A stretch of DNA of 64,000 nucleotides from Chthonomonas calidirosea (GCA_945882415.1 CAMCWC010000003.1:62001-126000); one strand, 5' to 3'; shown: positions 53,969 to 61,903, counted from the stretch's first letter. Notes: generated by a model from the sequence alone, not told the origin. Numbers and translations: made by a program.

Positions 53969-54190
53969 ATGACAATTGCTGAAAGGAATCGGCGAATTCG
54001 GAAAGATGCCTCACAGAAAGCCATTGAGGGCTTTTTCGTGTGGTTCATTATCGTGGGAACGTGGCACGTGGCGGCGGCAATGTGGTTCTTCCGGGACCTG
54101 CTGTCAGCCCTTATGGTGCTGATCATCGGCACAGGGTTGGTAGGCGCACTTCGCGGCCTTGATCGCGTCAAGCAATTTCTGCTGAGCTAG
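53969..54190 (+). CDS. Small two-helix membrane protein (2TM-like)
   Basis: 73 residues. A basic N-terminus (ERNRRIRKDASQKA) is followed by two membrane helices (about 22-40 and 43-62). It resembles the 2TM domain found in histidine kinase-associated and stand-alone proteins. The ATG has a Shine-Dalgarno GGAAGGGA 6 nt upstream. It is the last gene before the defence region. Confidence 0.6.
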   Translation: MTIAERNRRIRKDASQKAIEGFFVWFIIVGTWHVAAAMWFFRDLLSALMVLIIGTGLVGALRGLDRVKQFLLS

Positions 54191-54661
54191 GGGCTCCGCG
54201 AGACCGGCAACCCAGGGGCATTTCATTCGTATCTCGTTGTTTACGACCCGATCGTGCTAGCTAGACCGCGGATGCGTTCAAGTACGAGGTCGTCACGCGC
54301 TGCATCGCCGTAGTCCCGAATGGCTCCCGCGAGGTGGTCGTGCTGCCAGATTGCGCTAGAAAGGCAAACTGGCTGGTTCCTCGTCAACTGGTCTCCTTGT
54401 GCTTGTGTCGGCCTGCTCTTGCCTATCGACAACAATATTACTTTTTGTAAGGATGAAATAGGTCAAACTGAACCATGAAGAACCTTTCGAGAGAGATTAG
54501 CGGCACGCGAGAGGGGATGTTTGACATGCGCCTCGACGAGCACCTGCATTGACGGCTGCCCGTGTTTGTAGGAGACCGAGACTCAAGCATTCAGTAACGA
54601 GTCGCTTCTGAAATCGTAACCGAGGACTTAGCAAAAGGACTCATGTGGGAGTGCCTCGTCG
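54191..54661 (+). other. Gene-free stretch at the left edge of the defence region
   Basis: 470 nt without a convincing gene. A minus-strand 64-codon frame (54241-54435) and a 25-codon plus-strand frame from ATG 54475 have no family likeness. No tRNA, inverted terminal repeat or integrase remnant was recognised. It holds the upstream region of the methylase operon; a clear promoter was not found. A Shine-Dalgarno-like GGGAG lies about 11 nt before ATG 54662. Confidence 0.6.
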
Positions 54662-55981
54662 ATGAGTAAAGTAGAGACAGAGTGTCTTATGACAGTTGGA
54701 CAAACCGCAACAGGTCAAATATTGCTATTTCCCAAAGATGTGAAGACACTGAAGGGCCAGGTCCTTGAAAGTCTTGATTCCCGTTCAGGCCCCTTAGCAT
54801 TACACCAGGAAACATTCCCGCAGTTCATCAAATACATGGGCTCGAAGACGAAGATCCTTGACTTTGTAATTTCGGGACTCAATGAGGTTTATGAGGGGGG
54901 TGGAGTCTGCGACCTGTTCGCCGGTTCCGCCAGTTTGGCTGGTGCGATCGGAGACCAGGTCCCCTTCGTTTCGAACGATATTCAGCGCTATTCGGCTGTT
55001 CTCGCGGGAGCCTATCTCATGCAAGAGGATCTGCCGTGCACTATCTCGGCAGCTTGCCTTATTGAGGACGCTCGCCCACTAGCCGAAGATCTCCTTCACA
55101 GTATTGGACCATACACAAATTACGACTCGATTACGGAAAGAGAAGCATTCGTGCGAGCAGAAAATGATGCACTGAACCTCCATTTAAAGCCACTCCCGCA
55201 GAAACACCACCTTTTCACACGCTTCTATTCGGGGACGTGGTGGTCGGCGGAGCAGTGTGCTTGGATTGATGCGCTTCGCTCAGTGGCGGACCGCCATGAA
55301 GGACACGCACACCACCTTATTCTTGCAACCATCATGCACGCGATGGCCTACTGTGGACAGGGAACCGGGCACTTCGCACAGTACAGAGACGCGACAACCG
55401 ACCACGCTTTTCAGGACATCGTACGCTACCGAAAGCGAAGCATTACCGATTACTTCGCGCGAAAGTGGCACAAGGACGCTCTGCCTCTAACACGACGACG
55501 CCCAGTGCAAGGGCATCAGCTTCTATCTAAGGACTACGTCGATTGCCTCGAAACTCTGAGGCCTTGTACTGTTTACGCGGATCCGCCGTATTGCTTCGTT
55601 CACTATTCACGCTTCTATCACGCCCTCGAAACACTCGTTCGGTACGACTATCCAGAGATCCAGCACAAGAACGGAAAGATGGTGAAGGGGCGCTACCGGG
55701 CCGAGCGACATCAGTCGCCATTCTCCATCGGAACGCAAGTTCCGGGAGCCTTCACGAAACTGTTCCAGGGTGTTCAAGCCTCGGGCAGTAACCTCGTTTT
55801 GAGTTATAGCAACACTGGAATGATTACACTCGAAAAATTACAAAGTCTTGCTCAAGCGACGCTCGGCAGCTCTTACGACCTGCAAGTTCTCACGATGGCC
55901 CACGTCCATATGACGATGGGACGCGCTAAAGACCGTGCCCGAGAGGTCACCGAAGCCCTACTGTTGGCTCGAAAAAAATGA
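54662..55981 (+). CDS. D12-class DNA adenine-N6 methyltransferase
   Basis: 439 residues, longer than Dam (about 280). The target-binding and SAM motifs are in order: FIKYMGSKTKILDF (56-69), DLFAGSAS (84-91, motif I), SNDIQRYS (104-111), and ADPPYCF at about 305 (motif IV, catalytic DPPY). An additional C-terminal region follows. It should methylate adenine N6 in a specific site. It overlaps the McrB-like gene by ATGA, so modification and restriction subunits are translationally coupled. Confidence 0.9.
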   Translation: MSKVETECLMTVGQTATGQILLFPKDVKTLKGQVLESLDSRSGPLALHQETFPQFIKYMGSKTKILDFVISGLNEVYEGGGVCDLFAGSASLAGAIGDQVPFVSNDIQRYSAVLAGAYLMQEDLPCTISAACLIEDARPLAEDLLHSIGPYTNYDSITEREAFVRAENDALNLHLKPLPQKHHLFTRFYSGTWWSAEQCAWIDALRSVADRHEGHAHHLILATIMHAMAYCGQGTGHFAQYRDATTDHAFQDIVRYRKRSITDYFARKWHKDALPLTRRRPVQGHQLLSKDYVDCLETLRPCTVYADPPYCFVHYSRFYHALETLVRYDYPEIQHKNGKMVKGRYRAERHQSPFSIGTQVPGAFTKLFQGVQASGSNLVLSYSNTGMITLEKLQSLAQATLGSSYDLQVLTMAHVHMTMGRAKDRAREVTEALLLARKK

Positions 55982-57717
55982 ACGGTTTACAAAACCTCAC
56001 TGTTTCGCTCACAAAGAACGGATTCAACAAGATTGGAGACGTTCTCACTCAGGTTCCCGCGAATCAGCTACTCGACAACCTAGACGGCCAGGTTAATGGG
56101 GCGCATATCGACTCGGCCCAGGTGAAGGCAATGCTCAATTTCGATGAGGCGACGGGAACATTCCCAGCTCTTTGGGACAACATCCGTACTCTCGGAGTGG
56201 ACGCCGTACAGAAATGTGTTTTTGTGGCAGTCGTCTTCAGCCACAGAAAATTCATCGACGAGCTTTCAAAGGGGAAGATTGGAGAGATGCGAGGAGTTGT
56301 CCGAAGAGACGACCTCGGGGACAAGCCCTATACGAATCTCGCAGGGTTCATGGCAAAGCTGAACATGACCACGCTTGCCAAAGGAACGAATGAGCTCTCT
56401 TATAACCTGGCGCCTCTGTTCACAGATCCGACGTTAGGCCCCCATTATAAGGAAATTGTAAGTCTGAAGCTCAAAGAGTGCGGGTGGCCAGGCGCGAATG
56501 ACGACTTCACGCGCGACTTTTATCAGCAATGTGAAGAGTATCGCCTTCATGATGTGTTGGCCATCAGCCCGGCTCAGTTTCAGGACTGGCTCGAGGGGAA
56601 CGTTGTCGAGGTCGAAGTTCCTCCGACTGTCGCATTCTCAGCAAACAATGCGGCGGTAACCGCTTCACTACTCATTTCGTTAGCGACCAAACCATTCGTG
56701 ATATTGGCAGGAGCCACAGGCACTGGAAAAACGAGATCTGCCAGACACCTTGCTTCATCAATTCGCCCTACCGACTGGTCAGAAGAATTCAGCGTCGCAT
56801 TCGTGCCAGTCGCGGCCGGCTGGACAGATGCCCGACACCTTCTCGGATATCGTTCACCCTTTGGACCTCGAGGAGAGCAGTATGTAGCGACCGCACTCCT
56901 TCGACTTTTGCTTCGGGCGAACTTTGCTGACTACGCAAACGTGCCTTTTTTCGTTGTTCTCGATGAGATGAATCTTAGCCAAGTTGAGATGTATTTTTCG
57001 AGCTTCCTTTCTCTGATGGAGGTATCTCAAGCGGGGGGACGCGAACCAGTTCTCGGTGTTCAAGATCTAGAGATATTTCTCAAGTCTAGGTTGCACGATG
57101 CGCTCGACGCGACCTTTGCTGAGGCGGCCATAAAGCAGGGTGGACTCTTTTTCACGAAGAACGTCTTCGTCATCGGCACGGTCAACGTTGACGACACGAC
57201 GCATACGTTCTCGCCCAAGGTTCTAGACCGAGCTTTTGTGTTGGAGTATCAACCTCCGAAGCCGTCAGAAACCGGAGCCGGCTTTTCAGTCGCAGCCGAC
57301 GATAGAGCTACCGGAACGGTCGAGGCACTTTCCAAGTTTATCCTGAACCCACCAATTACCGGCGACCCGTCCGTTCGAGGGACGGTAACAGCGGCCTTAG
57401 ATGAACTCTTCGCTAAGCTTGGGAGATACAGGTTCGGTCCCCGAACTACGAACGAAATCGTGCGCTACGTTGAAGTCGCGAAGGTGGCAGCAGCCGAAGG
57501 TTTATGTCCCGCTGTGGCTACCGATATCGAGATCCTCGATCGGGCAATTGTCTGTAAGGTACTCACGAAGCTTCAAGGGAGTCGGTCAATGCTTAGCCAA
57601 CCGCTAAAGGATCTGAGCGAAATCGCCATGGCCAAGGGCTATAGCAATGCGTCGGCAAAGCTAGATGCAATGACAAGGGAGCTCGCCGGTGGATATGCGA
57701 ACTACTTCTCGGTGTAA
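55978..57717 (+). CDS. McrB-like AAA+ ATPase/GTPase (restriction subunit)
   Basis: 579 residues. The N-terminal 215 residues are unassigned and may sense DNA or the modification. The AAA+ core has Walker A GATGTGKT (about 245-252), Walker B FFVVLDEMNLSQVEMYF (about 323-339) and the McrB-group sensor GTVNVDDTTHTFSPKVLDRA, followed by a helical lid (RFGPRTTNEIVRYVEVAK). McrB-type motors hydrolyse GTP and translocate DNA for a partner nuclease. Here the partner is the next gene, 7 nt downstream. Confidence 0.88.
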   Translation: MNGLQNLTVSLTKNGFNKIGDVLTQVPANQLLDNLDGQVNGAHIDSAQVKAMLNFDEATGTFPALWDNIRTLGVDAVQKCVFVAVVFSHRKFIDELSKGKIGEMRGVVRRDDLGDKPYTNLAGFMAKLNMTTLAKGTNELSYNLAPLFTDPTLGPHYKEIVSLKLKECGWPGANDDFTRDFYQQCEEYRLHDVLAISPAQFQDWLEGNVVEVEVPPTVAFSANNAAVTASLLISLATKPFVILAGATGTGKTRSARHLASSIRPTDWSEEFSVAFVPVAAGWTDARHLLGYRSPFGPRGEQYVATALLRLLLRANFADYANVPFFVVLDEMNLSQVEMYFSSFLSLMEVSQAGGREPVLGVQDLEIFLKSRLHDALDATFAEAAIKQGGLFFTKNVFVIGTVNVDDTTHTFSPKVLDRAFVLEYQPPKPSETGAGFSVAADDRATGTVEALSKFILNPPITGDPSVRGTVTAALDELFAKLGRYRFGPRTTNEIVRYVEVAKVAAAEGLCPAVATDIEILDRAIVCKVLTKLQGSRSMLSQPLKDLSEIAMAKGYSNASAKLDAMTRELAGGYANYFSV

Positions 57718-57724
57718 GTGAGCT

Positions 57725-59593
57725 GTGGAACTTTGCGCCGCCAAGTTCTTAGGGACAGACATAGAGTTAAAGCTCTCAGTGAATGGAGTTACGGCCGGGC
57801 AGGCCGCTACATGGGTCGAACTCTCCGGTCCCAAGATCCAAGGCCTAGAAGCGCCTCTTATGGACCGCTCACGACGACTAACCTTCGACGAAGGAATCTC
57901 CTCGATTCTTCAGCCTTTTAGGCTCAAAGAAAACACCGAGTACGACTTCGCTCTCAGAATCAAATGCAGCGAAGCTGACCTTATCGAAGCCATGTCCGAG
58001 CACGCGTTCGCACCATTCCGAATGGACTCTCTTATCGGTGTTGCGACGCTGAATACTAGGGATTCGTGGAGGTCAGAGGGCGAATGGGTTTTCCTAACAG
58101 GTCGAATCAACTTTAAAAACCGAGCCGGCCGAGCAGATTTATCGGTTCGGCTAAAATCGGCCGAGCTGGATCTCTTCGTAGAAGTTGCCCCTTCTAAGCT
58201 TGAATACGAAGAACATTTCCATGTAATCGTTGACGCTCTTGCAAAGAAGCACGTTGAGCTTCTTCTCAGGCTAGATACAGGAGTCGAAACAGCCCTCGAA
58301 ATTCTAGAGGAGGAGCCGAGCTCTCCTCTGCAGGAGATGATTCACCTCCGTAGGCTCTTCGAGTCAGGAACCATCGAACACGCGGTGAGAATGATTGAAA
58401 ACAATCCGACGTTTCGCCTCAACGCGGAGAAGCAATCTGAAATCACGGCGCTCAGCGCGGATCCGGATTGGTCAACCTTTACGACGTCCCCGTACGAATC
58501 GGAATGGATAAATTCTGGAACGCAGAGTGGCCTTATCGATGGATGGATCCCGGTCACTCTGCCAACCGTCCGCAAAGAAAGCACGAACGATTCTAAGGAA
58601 AACCGCTTCATAAAGCATCTCCTTCAAGTTCTTGGCTGGAGGCTTCACGCTCTCTCCGAGATGTTATCTAAGAGCCAAACAGCCTCGCATCACGCGCTTA
58701 GAAGGTGGCAGACCACCATTCAAAATATACTCGCACAACCCTTTTGGCTTAGTGTTCAACCACGAGGAACGATGCCAAATTCAATGGCCCTTGTTTACCG
58801 AGCAGGGTATCGAGACATTATTCGCTCGTTTGCCGAGCTCGCGATGGCGGTCAGCCTTTCAAAAGTCCAGACTCTCTCCGATGAATCAGGAGAATTGAAG
58901 CCGGTATACGATTTGTACGAAGCCTGGTGCTTCTTTGCGTTCTGCGACGCCACGAGTAAGGTTGCCGGGACGGACCTTACTTCACAAATTCAACTCGTTG
59001 CAGATCCAGAAGGCGCAATGTCCGTTCTCGGAGCGATACGCGGCACGCCGTTGAAGGCCACCTTCGTTCGAGGAGGAAACGCGGTCACTATCACGGTTCA
59101 CTATAATCGAACCTTCAGACGTACGAATGCGGACGCGTGGCAAGATAGCTATTCGGTCAAGCTCCGGCCGGACATAAGCCTCCATATTGAGGCGGCCGAG
59201 ATAAGCCATTGGCTTCACTTCGACGCAAAGTACAGACTCGATTTTAAACAGCTCGAAGATGCTTGGAAAACTGAGCTCGAAGAGGACGCCATGGCTGCTT
59301 CTTTCGTTGAGGATGACATCCACGTCATGCACACATACCGGGATGCGGTCTTAGGCACACGCGGAAGCTTCATTCTTTATCCTGGCAGGGAAACGAAGGC
59401 GAGGCTTTTCACAAGACACGGCCAAGCCGCCTATCGTGCAGCCGAAAAGCTTCCGAGTGTTGGAGCCTTCCCTTTGTTACCTTCCCCAACAGGCAACGCC
59501 TTACAAGAATTGGAACTCTTCAACTTCATTCAGGAGGCGGTAGAACGCATATCATCTGCTGGAGGCTATCAAGAGGAGTCAGCGTTCGTATAG
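57725..59593 (+). CDS. DUF2357-domain PD-(D/E)XK nuclease (McrC-like restriction subunit)
   Basis: 622 residues from GTG 57725. The N-terminal half is a beta-rich DUF2357 region with KENRFIKHLLQVL at about 295. The C-terminal half is a PD-(D/E)XK nuclease of the DUF524/McrC-related group: LRPDISLHIE (about 480) and LHFDAKYRLDF (about 497) provide the D and the D-x-K catalytic residues, followed by DDIHVMHTYRDAVLG. The likely product is the cleavage subunit driven by the McrB-like ATPase. Codon use contains more AGA/AGG arginine codons than the flanking housekeeping genes, a sign of transfer. Confidence 0.85.
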   Translation: MELCAAKFLGTDIELKLSVNGVTAGQAATWVELSGPKIQGLEAPLMDRSRRLTFDEGISSILQPFRLKENTEYDFALRIKCSEADLIEAMSEHAFAPFRMDSLIGVATLNTRDSWRSEGEWVFLTGRINFKNRAGRADLSVRLKSAELDLFVEVAPSKLEYEEHFHVIVDALAKKHVELLLRLDTGVETALEILEEEPSSPLQEMIHLRRLFESGTIEHAVRMIENNPTFRLNAEKQSEITALSADPDWSTFTTSPYESEWINSGTQSGLIDGWIPVTLPTVRKESTNDSKENRFIKHLLQVLGWRLHALSEMLSKSQTASHHALRRWQTTIQNILAQPFWLSVQPRGTMPNSMALVYRAGYRDIIRSFAELAMAVSLSKVQTLSDESGELKPVYDLYEAWCFFAFCDATSKVAGTDLTSQIQLVADPEGAMSVLGAIRGTPLKATFVRGGNAVTITVHYNRTFRRTNADAWQDSYSVKLRPDISLHIEAAEISHWLHFDAKYRLDFKQLEDAWKTELEEDAMAASFVEDDIHVMHTYRDAVLGTRGSFILYPGRETKARLFTRHGQAAYRAAEKLPSVGAFPLLPSPTGNALQELELFNFIQEAVERISSAGGYQEESAFV

Positions 59594-59604
59594 GGATTGC
59601 TGAT

Positions 59605-60582
59605 TCACCAGCTGGCCAACGATAGCGCGTCCTGAAGACCCGGAAGAGTCTTGACAGTAAGGCTTGGCTTATAGCTAAGTAGTTTTTTCTCGATATCGGC
59701 AGCCCAAGGGTCAAGAATTGCAATTCTTTCGACCACTCCTTCTCGAATCGCATCCCGAAAGAACGCCTGGACGGCGATGTCGTAGGTAGGAAACGAATAT
59801 CCGCACACAAGCCAACTTCGGGACTTCCTAAGAGCTTGGCCTGCATATTTCCAGACTACTGCAAAATCCTCCGGGAGTTGCTTCTCCGGTATAGGAGGAA
59901 CAATCGCGACGTGGCCGGCTTTGGTTGTCTTGCGGAATGCTGCCCTTAAATCCCCATGAATTTTAAAATCGTGAGGTTCAAATGCCCAGTTTAATGAACC
60001 ATGAAGCTTGAAGAGGGAGATGTCATTTCCCATAAGTACTGCCTCACTCTCGTTTTTGATTGGGTTCAGCATCTTGCGATACCACTGCTCCGGGCCCGGC
60101 ATCCCGCCGTAGTGGCACAGGGGCGCATAGCGGTCACTCTCGTATCTTGGGCGCAACCCTTGTTCTATGAGGATGTCGTAATTCGTAGTTACAACGGTTC
60201 GGATCTCGCCTTCCTTTAAGATCCTAGTCCAAAATTGGCGATGAATATCGCTTTGCACGGAAGTGAACACATCATGAAAATATTCCGCTTTTTGCCGCTC
60301 CTTCAAACCCAAAACAAGGCGAGCGGTTAGGAAGCGAAGCACCTTTGGCCATATACTCCCATCAGTTTCTCGATTTGAATATAGTTCGGACATCCATTCC
60401 TCGGTTCCCTTGCCCGGATTCAAAGAGCTCCAATGAATCCAGGCAGCACGAACTGACTCATGTTGCGCTAATAAATTTTGGTGCTCGCTCGGCTCAACTG
60501 GTAGCTGATCAAACAATTCCTTAGTAAGGGGCAAGCCAGCAGCCTTTGAGAACCCGGCACCAAGAATAAGAGCTTCTGCCAT
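59605..60582 (-). CDS. SIR2-domain protein, probable NADase defence effector
   Basis: 325 residues. The SIR2 NAD-binding motifs are LILGAGFSKAAGLP (8-16 core), VVTTNYDILIE (132-136 TNYD), FKLHGSLNWA (192-199) and VCGYSFPTYD (261-268). Stand-alone SIR2 proteins in phage-defence systems deplete NAD+ on infection. No Argonaute, HerA or Thoeris partner is adjacent. It converges on the nuclease gene with 11 nt between stops. The ATG is preceded by TAGAAT. Confidence 0.85.
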   Translation of the reverse strand: MAEALILGAGFSKAAGLPLTKELFDQLPVEPSEHQNLLAQHESVRAAWIHWSSLNPGKGTEEWMSELYSNRETDGSIWPKVLRFLTARLVLGLKERQKAEYFHDVFTSVQSDIHRQFWTRILKEGEIRTVVTTNYDILIEQGLRPRYESDRYAPLCHYGGMPGPEQWYRKMLNPIKNESEAVLMGNDISLFKLHGSLNWAFEPHDFKIHGDLRAAFRKTTKAGHVAIVPPIPEKQLPEDFAVVWKYAGQALRKSRSWLVCGYSFPTYDIAVQAFFRDAIREGVVERIAILDPWAADIEKKLLSYKPSLTVKTLPGLQDALSLASW

Positions 60583-60588
60583 TTTTTG

Positions 60589-60594
60589 ATTCTA
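60589..60594 (-). promoter_or_regulatory. -10 element of the SIR2 gene
   Basis: TAGAAT on the minus strand ends 6 nt before ATG 60582; the spacer is CAAAAA. Confidence 0.5.
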
Positions 60595-60699
60595 ACAGAT
60601 GGTAGCAATTTATAATTCGGGCAGTCCAAAATTTTGCAAGAAATTTTCGTAATTCAAATGTAGGTAAACTGAATTAACGATGCGTCGTCATTGGTTGCC

Positions 60700-61221
60700 T
60701 TAGCTACACTCGTGGCTCTCCCGCCTGAAGTCTCGACTCAGGAAGATGTCGTCGTGATACTCTCGCGACGGCGAACGGAAGGCCGTCATCTTCGTGCCCA
60801 AGAAACATACGGGTTCAATCACCTTGATCTTGATTCCGTTCTCAAGCGTGTACGGCCATGCCGTGTCGATTGCGAGGGGATACCACGGATTCAGCTCAGC
60901 CGTCGTCTCGGGATTGACGGGGATCACATCAATCACCGTGATGCCATTCAGATAGCGGCAAACGGGGCCCTCCATGTCGTTCCTAAAGCCAAGTGCTAAG
61001 AGGCGACGGTCGAGGGCATGCAAATCCAGCATGCCCGTACCCATCTTGATCGCGACATCAACGTCTTTGGTTACTCGGGGTGGCAGCCCTCCCTTGTCGG
61101 TGAGAAGCAAACCGACGACGGCGCCACCGAGGAAGACCACCTCTGGGCAAAGGTCTCCCAGTTGTTGGGCTGCAAGGTTCAGCAACTCGATTGGCGGAAC
61201 AGCCCTCACTTCAGTCCTCAC
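60700..61221 (-). CDS. Nucleotidyltransferase (AbiEii-like)
   Basis: 173 residues from GTG 61221; the longer frame overlaps the upstream gene in nonsense sequence. The nucleotidyltransferase core is FLGGAVVGLLLTD (GG motif) followed by RVTKDVDVAIKM (D-x-D metal ligands) and IDVIPVNPETT. AbiEii-type toxins use this fold to modify tRNA or other targets with nucleotides. It overlaps the regulator gene by 11 nt. Confidence 0.8.
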   Translation of the reverse strand: MRTEVRAVPPIELLNLAAQQLGDLCPEVVFLGGAVVGLLLTDKGGLPPRVTKDVDVAIKMGTGMLDLHALDRRLLALGFRNDMEGPVCRYLNGITVIDVIPVNPETTAELNPWYPLAIDTAWPYTLENGIKIKVIEPVCFLGTKMTAFRSPSREYHDDIFLSRDFRRESHECS

Positions 61222-61732
61222 CTCGTAGCGAGAAGATTCGGTGGAGTTCTTTCCGAGCCAAGTCGCGCTCTCGGTTGTCACCCAAGCGCAGTGCATCGAC
61301 AAGGGCCAGGACCGCGTAAAAGTCTGGGTCGCGTAACGCAACCTTCGGCGCACTCGGGTGCAGGGGCTCAACGGAGAGCCCGCGCGTCTCGCCCAATGGA
61401 TAGGGCCAAACGGGGGGTAGGGAGTCCGATGATGCAATTTCCGCGTCCAGTGGAGGGGCCGCCCACGCCGTGGGGGTTCCCCGCGACTCTCCGCCCTGCT
61501 CGGGGGCCAGGAAGAATCTTGATCCATGAACCAGGGCCTCTTCAAGACTTCTGAGATTCAGGTTCTTGCTTGAGGGATGGTAGAGCTTTGCGTTCGTAGC
61601 TCGCTTGAGGGCGCGGTTCACGGTAGAAGGACTCACGCCGATTTCGGCAGCCAGCAGGCCCTGGGTCCAGTCGCTACGCCCCCTAAGGGAGGCGATTTTC
61701 AGTAACACGTACATGTCCGCGGAGTCCATCAC
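61211..61732 (-). CDS. Winged-helix regulator paired with the nucleotidyltransferase
   Basis: 173 residues from GTG 61732. The helix-turn-helix is WTQGLLAAEIGVSPSTVNRALKRA. A conserved central block (ESRGTPTAWAAPPL; PPVWPYPLGETRGLSVEPLHPSAP) and helical end (LALVDALRLGDNRERDLA) belong to a family usually found next to nucleotidyltransferases, as in type IV abortive-infection toxin-antitoxin pairs. TATAAT lies 6 nt before the GTG and a palindromic operator just behind it, so it probably represses its own operon. Confidence 0.82.
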   Translation of the reverse strand: MMDSADMYVLLKIASLRGRSDWTQGLLAAEIGVSPSTVNRALKRATNAKLYHPSSKNLNLRSLEEALVHGSRFFLAPEQGGESRGTPTAWAAPPLDAEIASSDSLPPVWPYPLGETRGLSVEPLHPSAPKVALRDPDFYAVLALVDALRLGDNRERDLARKELHRIFSLRGED

Positions 61733-61738
61733 ACCTCA

Positions 61739-61744
61739 ATTATA
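61739..61744 (-). promoter_or_regulatory. -10 element of the regulator-nucleotidyltransferase operon
   Basis: A perfect TATAAT on the minus strand ends 6 nt before GTG 61732. An ATG three bases further has no usable upstream site, so the GTG is the start. Confidence 0.6.
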
Positions 61745-61749
61745 GGCTG

Positions 61750-61778
61750 TTCGGTATTCGCGATTCGCGAATGCCGAA
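61750..61778 (+). promoter_or_regulatory. Near-perfect 29-bp palindrome, probable operator
   Basis: TTCGGTATTCGCGA (61750-61763) and TCGCGAATGCCGAA (61765-61778) are inverted copies with one mismatch around a single central T. It covers the region where the -35 of the promoter at 61739 should be, so binding would block transcription. Confidence 0.65.
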
Positions 61779-61903
61779 TAAACTTGTATTGGACTAGCGA
61801 TGTTTGACAACATAGCCCGGTCGGAAAGGAAGTCGAAGTACCGGTCACCTACCCGACTGTCGCTCATGTGAAATCTTCCTCTCATAAGACCTGCGGAGGC
61901 ACC

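Follow-up and report, generated by a model that had tools for sequence, protein, structure and literature searches.

Does a three-gene operon of Chthonomonas calidirosea, in which an adenine methylase is joined to an McrB-like motor and an McrC-like nuclease, attack modified DNA as McrBC does, or does it spare DNA that carries the operon's own mark? The operon lies in a stretch of 64,000 nucleotides (GCA_945882415.1 CAMCWC010000003.1:62001-126000), here called the window, whose positions are counted from its first letter. Its genes, and the domain of the second on which much of the argument turns, are as follows.

54662..55981, plus strand: D12-class N6-adenine DNA methyltransferase (439 aa, ATG start)
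55978..57717, plus strand: McrB-like AAA+ motor protein with a predicted N-terminal reader domain (579 aa, ATG start)
55978..56613, plus strand: N-terminal domain of the ATPase (residues 1-212; hereafter the N-domain), a predicted DNA-recognition domain (AF2 model, structure alignment)
57725..59593, plus strand: McrC-like nuclease with DUF2357 and PD-(D/E)xK domains (622 aa, GTG start)

The reading frames agree with the initial annotation, which had described an overlapping operon of D12 methylase, McrB-like ATPase and DUF2357/PD-(D/E)xK nuclease with intact catalytic motifs: methylase and ATPase share four nucleotides (ATGA), a 7-nt gap separates ATPase from nuclease, and the motifs are intact in all three proteins and kept in aligned relatives. 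Promoter and terminator scans gave no more than chance, and in contrast to several relatives there is no regulator ORF upstream of the window methylase. A small HTH protein is encoded just upstream of the methylase at L010 6551-6772, L028 4521-4739, L031 4568-4801, L033 1521-1721, L034 4604-4810 and L035 290-490 (L numbers denote loci), of type HTH_17 in Roseibium and the Pseudomonadales and XRE-like in the Bacteroidota, and is possibly a control protein.

The methylase matches PF02086 (MethyltransfD12) in Pfam at 2e-13, above the curated cut-off, and its KYMGSK, DLFAGS and DPPY motifs are intact and conserved among aligned relatives; PF02086, DPPY and an AdoMet motif together place it in the D12 class. 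The ATPase drew only sub-threshold AAA matches from Pfam, and matches PADLOC PDC-M26A at 4e-36. Its full AlphaFold model (pLDDT 80.7) aligns over residues 221-432 to E. coli McrB (6ut6, Z 15.4) and also to a chain titled YDJA-YDIS (9a5m, Z 13.2), and three motor motifs occupy invariant alignment columns.

56710..56733, plus strand: Walker A, GATGTGKT (ATPase residues 245-252)
ATPase residues 328-332, plus strand: Walker B, LDEMN
ATPase residues N403-V-D405, plus strand: McrB signature NxD (GTVNVD)

Single-sequence scans of the genome_contigs and viral_contigs collections returned no relative of the ATPase, nor did a two-row ATPase alignment scanned on viral_contigs. Searching PDB sequences directly turned up no relative. 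For the nuclease, Pfam reports PF09823 DUF2357 (3e-31, residues 125-368) and PF04411 PDDEXK_7 (1.4e-26, residues 397-556), with catalytic residues PD483...D500xK502 invariant among relatives.

A gene-neighbourhood survey showed the triplet to be conserved in other genomes. The same gene order occurs in Pseudomonadota, Verrucomicrobiota and Bacteroidota, with identities of 48-52% for the methylase, 33-47% for the ATPase and 25-35% for the nuclease, and since order and identity recur in three other phyla the triplet is more than a chance arrangement. On a Roseibium plasmid the three genes keep this order, and the ATPase is 48% identical over its full length; the triplet was also found in Pseudomonadales, Gammaproteobacteria and Geminisphaera, and in Bacteroidota with a more distant motor. 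Scanning genome_contigs with two N-domain patterns (DFYQQCE and LTKNG[FY][NF]K) gave eight loci. A D12 methylase (48-52% identical) lies directly upstream of the ATPase in all seven that have upstream DNA, and a DUF2357 nuclease directly downstream in six of the eight; of the other two, L033 is on a contig that ends in the ATPase and L035 has a different nuclease. With Roseibium included, the methylase is directly upstream in 8/8 N-domain relatives with upstream DNA, all found by searches that made no use of the methylase (L032 and L033, whose N-domains are identical, are probably one organism in two MAGs). The partnership of N-domain and methylase is strict in the sampled loci. Where other McrBC pairs are coupled to a methylase, their N-termini are unrelated and the methylases belong to other classes: relatives of the motor and nuclease stand beside an N6_N4_Mtase in Sinorhizobium (Pfam), with similar annotations in Thauera and Rhizobium, and beside m5C methylases in Caballeronia and Deinococcus, and tblastn matches to the ATPases of such systems begin no earlier than about residue 200. 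Scanning viral_contigs with the N-domain alignment gave no relative.

The methylase also occurs without the other two genes, a pattern that the initial annotation had counted against its own reading; it then adjoins a BglII/BstYI restriction enzyme instead, so that a restriction-modification reading is strengthened. Such neighbours of the same tight methylase family were found at L013, L014, L043 and L045, the L013 and L014 methylases being 43-53% identical within the family.

We therefore arrive at a reading to which we assign a probability of roughly three in four (0.77): the operon would be a horizontally acquired, McrBC-like, methylase-coupled restriction-modification system that cuts unmethylated DNA, with the N-domain as reader. 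We infer methylation, recognition of a target sequence, translocation and cleavage by the operon's proteins along the following lines. The D12 enzyme would methylate adenine wherever a short GATC-core site occurs in the host's DNA, marking self, while the BrxA/SspB-like N-domain of the McrB-like protein would bind the same site where it lacks the methyl group; the AAA+ ring would then translocate DNA with NTP, and the McrC-like subunit, joining the ring through DUF2357, would cut unmarked DNA with its PD-(D/E)xK domain. An McrBC-type nuclease with its own methylase and LlaJI-like self-protection is what the initial annotation had proposed, and on our analysis this is the best-supported reading, with experimentally tested precedents in LlaJI, an McrBC-like pair with a methylase that restricts unmethylated DNA and whose R1 (McrB-like) subunit binds the site (PMC1459862), and in PcaI, which restricts plasmids and phage and is blocked by its methylase (PMC8989522).

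The effector behind the N-domain/methylase pair has been exchanged. In Mariniflexile sp. AS56 (L035 290-5013) the methylase and N-domain are 71% and 77% identical to those of L032/L033; after about residue 210 the ATPase is a canonical McrB/LlaJI-type GTPase (AAA_5; PADLOC REase_II 6.7e-43) with the signature NxxD, and the third protein is a nuclease-like one of 562 aa without a Pfam hit, whose Pedobacter homologue stands, in the LlaJI layout, next to an AAA protein and a pair of m5C methylases. The prophage-like IMG/VR contig IMGVR_UViG_2808606686_000001 (L044 5917-9718) carries a related D12 methylase (38% identical), an N-domain-PtuA fusion and a PtuB-like HNH protein. Residues 1-207 of the fusion match the N-domain (hhalign 96.8%, 18% identity, alignment from column 60), the remainder is Septu PtuA (1.4e-43), and the protein that follows matches PtuB at 3.9e-43. 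Because this contig was found through its methylase, the N-domain on it is an independent outcome; the locus, a distant relative that combines both Septu proteins with a D12 methylase whereas the window has no PtuA/PtuB, is possibly a methylase-guarded Septu, and its N-domain returned only L044 itself from viral_contigs. A single origin of the N-domain systems is rejected by the DUF2357 nuclease tree (p-AU 0.0076) and compatible with the AAA+ tree (p 0.144). Separately, on the E. coli plasmid pTE_T100_3 (L016 5881-11709) two D12 methylases face a LlaJI-family endonuclease (PF09563) and an AAA ATPase, which reads as a LlaJI-type system with m6A, not m5C, methylases; the arrangement at L048 is similar.

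The 215-residue N-terminus of the ATPase, listed as unassigned in the initial annotation, is a conserved domain that pairs with the D12 methylase, and its predicted fold resembles that of BrxA and SspB, an assignment of moderate confidence. Predicted alone with nine sequences it is globular and mostly helical (AF2 pLDDT 89.5, pTM 0.89). When Foldseek-ranked chains were aligned with VIA-align, BrxA came first (7zge, Z 7.6, 146 residues aligned), followed by the Magnetospirillum BrxA homologue 3bhw (Z 7.1) and SspB (6juf, Z 5.5, 192 aligned), with a drop to 3.2 at the next chain. We hold the assignment at moderate because Z, for a domain that is mostly helical, does not reach 8, and because the N-domain has no Pfam sequence match to DUF1819/DUF4007. 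Foldseek itself gave nothing significant for the N-domain against the PDB (best gasdermin D, E 0.17) or BFVD, and a weak, off-target profile match to dynein light chain in the PDB was judged to be chance. BrxA binds DNA, and a DALI comparison puts 3bhw nearest to it and SspB next (PMC9240713); in BREX and Ssp systems, BrxA/DUF4007 has been described as a DNA-binding module with a tandem HTH/wHTH arrangement (PMC12839542).

The N-domain might instead couple the motor to the methylase or sense a phage protein, specificity coming from the methylase or some other part, and its occurrence with the methylase and not with any one effector would fit such a protein-protein interface. We regard this as unlikely: in the characterized examples, McrB and R1.LlaJI, the equivalent subunit is the one that binds the site on DNA (PMC1459862, PMC12707154), four residues (R110, K116, T119 and N120) are conserved at a hairpin of the N-domain, and the fold is similar to that of DNA-binding proteins. 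It is very unlikely that the ATPase-nuclease pair is a type IV enzyme cutting modified (m6A or other) foreign DNA, with the methylase a bystander or decoy. McrBC, the motor's closest structural match, is indeed modification-dependent, but type IV McrBC is characterized by a DUF3578 (ADAM) N-domain and no methylase partner, whereas here Pfam reports no such methylcytosine-binding domain in the ATPase, the genes overlap, a D12 methylase adjoins in every sampled N-domain locus with upstream DNA, and a nuclease specific for m6A, sitting next to an active adenine methylase, would cut the cell's own chromosome. A BREX-like action, in which unmethylated sites are recognized via the BrxA-like domain and replication is blocked with no cutting, has the N-domain's resemblance to BrxA and SspB in its favour and is very unlikely given the intact, conserved PD-D-x-K residues of the nuclease, the HNH cutter that adjoins the N-domain elsewhere and the BglII-type cutters beside the same methylase family.

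As to how the operon came to be in C. calidirosea, comparison with the nearest relative (G014) shows that the operon sits in an island inserted relative to that genome, together with separate candidate defence genes.

54189..61899, no strand: inserted defence island of 7.7 kb (blastn of the window against L062, GC drop)
59605..60582, minus strand: SIR2-like defence protein, a separate island neighbour facing the operon (PF13289 2.3e-6; PADLOC SIR2 3.6e-15)
60700..61732, minus strand: candidate defence pair PDC-M21A/B, a separate island neighbour (PADLOC)
61211-61732, minus strand: PDC-M21A (PADLOC 4e-36)
60700-61269, minus strand: PDC-M21B (PADLOC 2.9e-25)

The flanks are 82% identical up to window position 54188 and from 61900 (blastn, window against L062), and in G014 the same two flanks, with flanking proteins 91% and 98% identical, are only 154 bp apart as against 7.7 kb in the window. 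GC falls to 0.51-0.53 within the island. The next-best match to the methylase in the phylum (291 genomes) is no more than 29% identical over most of its length, so we take the system to be sporadic and acquired. The second gene of the PDC-M21A/B pair was read as nucleotidyltransferase-like.

If the operon is a methylase-coupled restriction-modification system, its methylase is predicted to act on a site with a GATC core, most likely RGATCY, which would be RG(m6A)TCY once marked. In the methylase tree, BglII/BstYI-linked rows are interleaved with N-domain-linked rows; a single clade of all ten N-domain-linked rows is rejected with the L044 row included (p-AU 1.8e-6) and is borderline without this long-branched row (p 0.054). 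The A. baumannii A118 system, composed of an adenine methylase, an HTH protein and a BglII/BstYI endonuclease, places m6A in RGATCY and restricts DNA that enters the cell (PMC10287943). Like L013 and L014 it sets an adenine methylase beside a BglII/BstYI enzyme, and its H0N27_10820 may belong to the same family; its cutter is a single type IIP enzyme whereas the window has an McrBC-like motor and nuclease. This interleaving, taken with the RGATCY methylation of a system of the same layout, therefore makes RGATCY, or another GATC-core site, the leading prediction. RGATCY is also the site cut by a BglII-family enzyme of phage NrS-3 (PMC10734518), and tblastn of the NrS-3 phage methylase, of known RGATCY specificity, found nothing in the phage collection.

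AGATCT, RGATCY and GATC show no system-specific depletion in the window or in 396 kb of its own genome compared with 400 kb of the relative that has no system at the site (for RGATCY, observed/expected 0.75 versus 0.76), a point against our main reading, and also what a newly arrived system should show. AGATCT is present three times inside the operon, an uninformative finding because such sites would be methylated. Among viral contigs, L049 4574-10973 carries two D12 methylase-like genes and then a GmrSD endonuclease gene, and L050-L057 repeatedly show a D12 methylase preceded by a DGQHR-domain gene and a gene of 400-450 aa without assignment; a DGQHR gene follows the methylase of L013 as well.

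The kind of system to which the operon most likely belongs is known: it has an McrB-like AAA+ protein, an McrC-like PD-(D/E)xK partner and an operon methylase conserved across relatives. LlaJI from the Lactococcus plasmid pNP40 (PMC1459862) shares an McrB-like NTPase with a unique N-terminal half, a separate PD-(D/E)xK nuclease subunit and cognate methylation. In LlaJI proper, however, the methylases are two m5C enzymes and the nuclease is RE_LlaJI (PF09563), neither of which Pfam finds in the operon with its one D12 m6A methylase and DUF2357/PDDEXK_7 nuclease, and the N-domain is B3-type (reported in PMC12707154), whereas that of the window's ATPase is predicted to be BrxA/SspB-like. PcaI of Pectobacterium (PMC8989522) shares the three-part layout of methylase, AAA+ protein and DUF2357 nuclease, but its methylase is a Dcm-type cytosine enzyme.

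Bell et al. 2024 (PMC11090510) describe the NxD branch of McrB as often methylase-associated (methyltransferase-associated McrBC), and the operon shares with it both NxD and an operon methylase; the portions of that paper drawn on here name the association without this subtype, the word 'adenine' being absent from its main text, and contain no mention of a BrxA-like N-domain. CoCoNuT systems combine NxD with long coiled-coil McrB domains; here NxD is present and the N-domain is globular in its model. A PADLOC HMM search named only the ATPase (as candidate PDC-M26A), and because the nuclease lacks a convincing match to PDC-M26B (E 0.016) the operon is not an established PADLOC system. A D12/BrxA-like subtype of methylase-coupled McrBC was not found in the open-licence papers searched. 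What sets the operon apart is its predicted BrxA/SspB-like N-domain and its D12 m6A methylase, the two parts that the initial annotation had singled out as less familiar.

With this operon the methylase-coupled McrBC systems gain a D12 m6A branch, an McrB N-terminal domain that had no assignment receives one that can be tested, the BrxA/SspB-like fold, and a predicted reader domain and a methylase are seen to move as a pair between different nucleases. What BrxA-like domains read also becomes directly testable, since both the site predicted here (RGATCY) and the mark that protects it are simple, and binding of the isolated N-domain to methylated versus unmethylated DNA should be readily measurable. 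More tentatively, and at somewhat less than even odds, the BrxA-like reader and D12 methylase may form a portable GATC-core cassette mounted on at least four effectors (two DUF2357 McrBC lineages, a LlaJI-like GTPase/nuclease and Septu PtuA/PtuB), from a methylase family that also serves BglII/BstYI enzymes. If so, telling self from non-self and killing would be modules that can be exchanged at will, and a restriction-modification system could be run with Septu as its effector.
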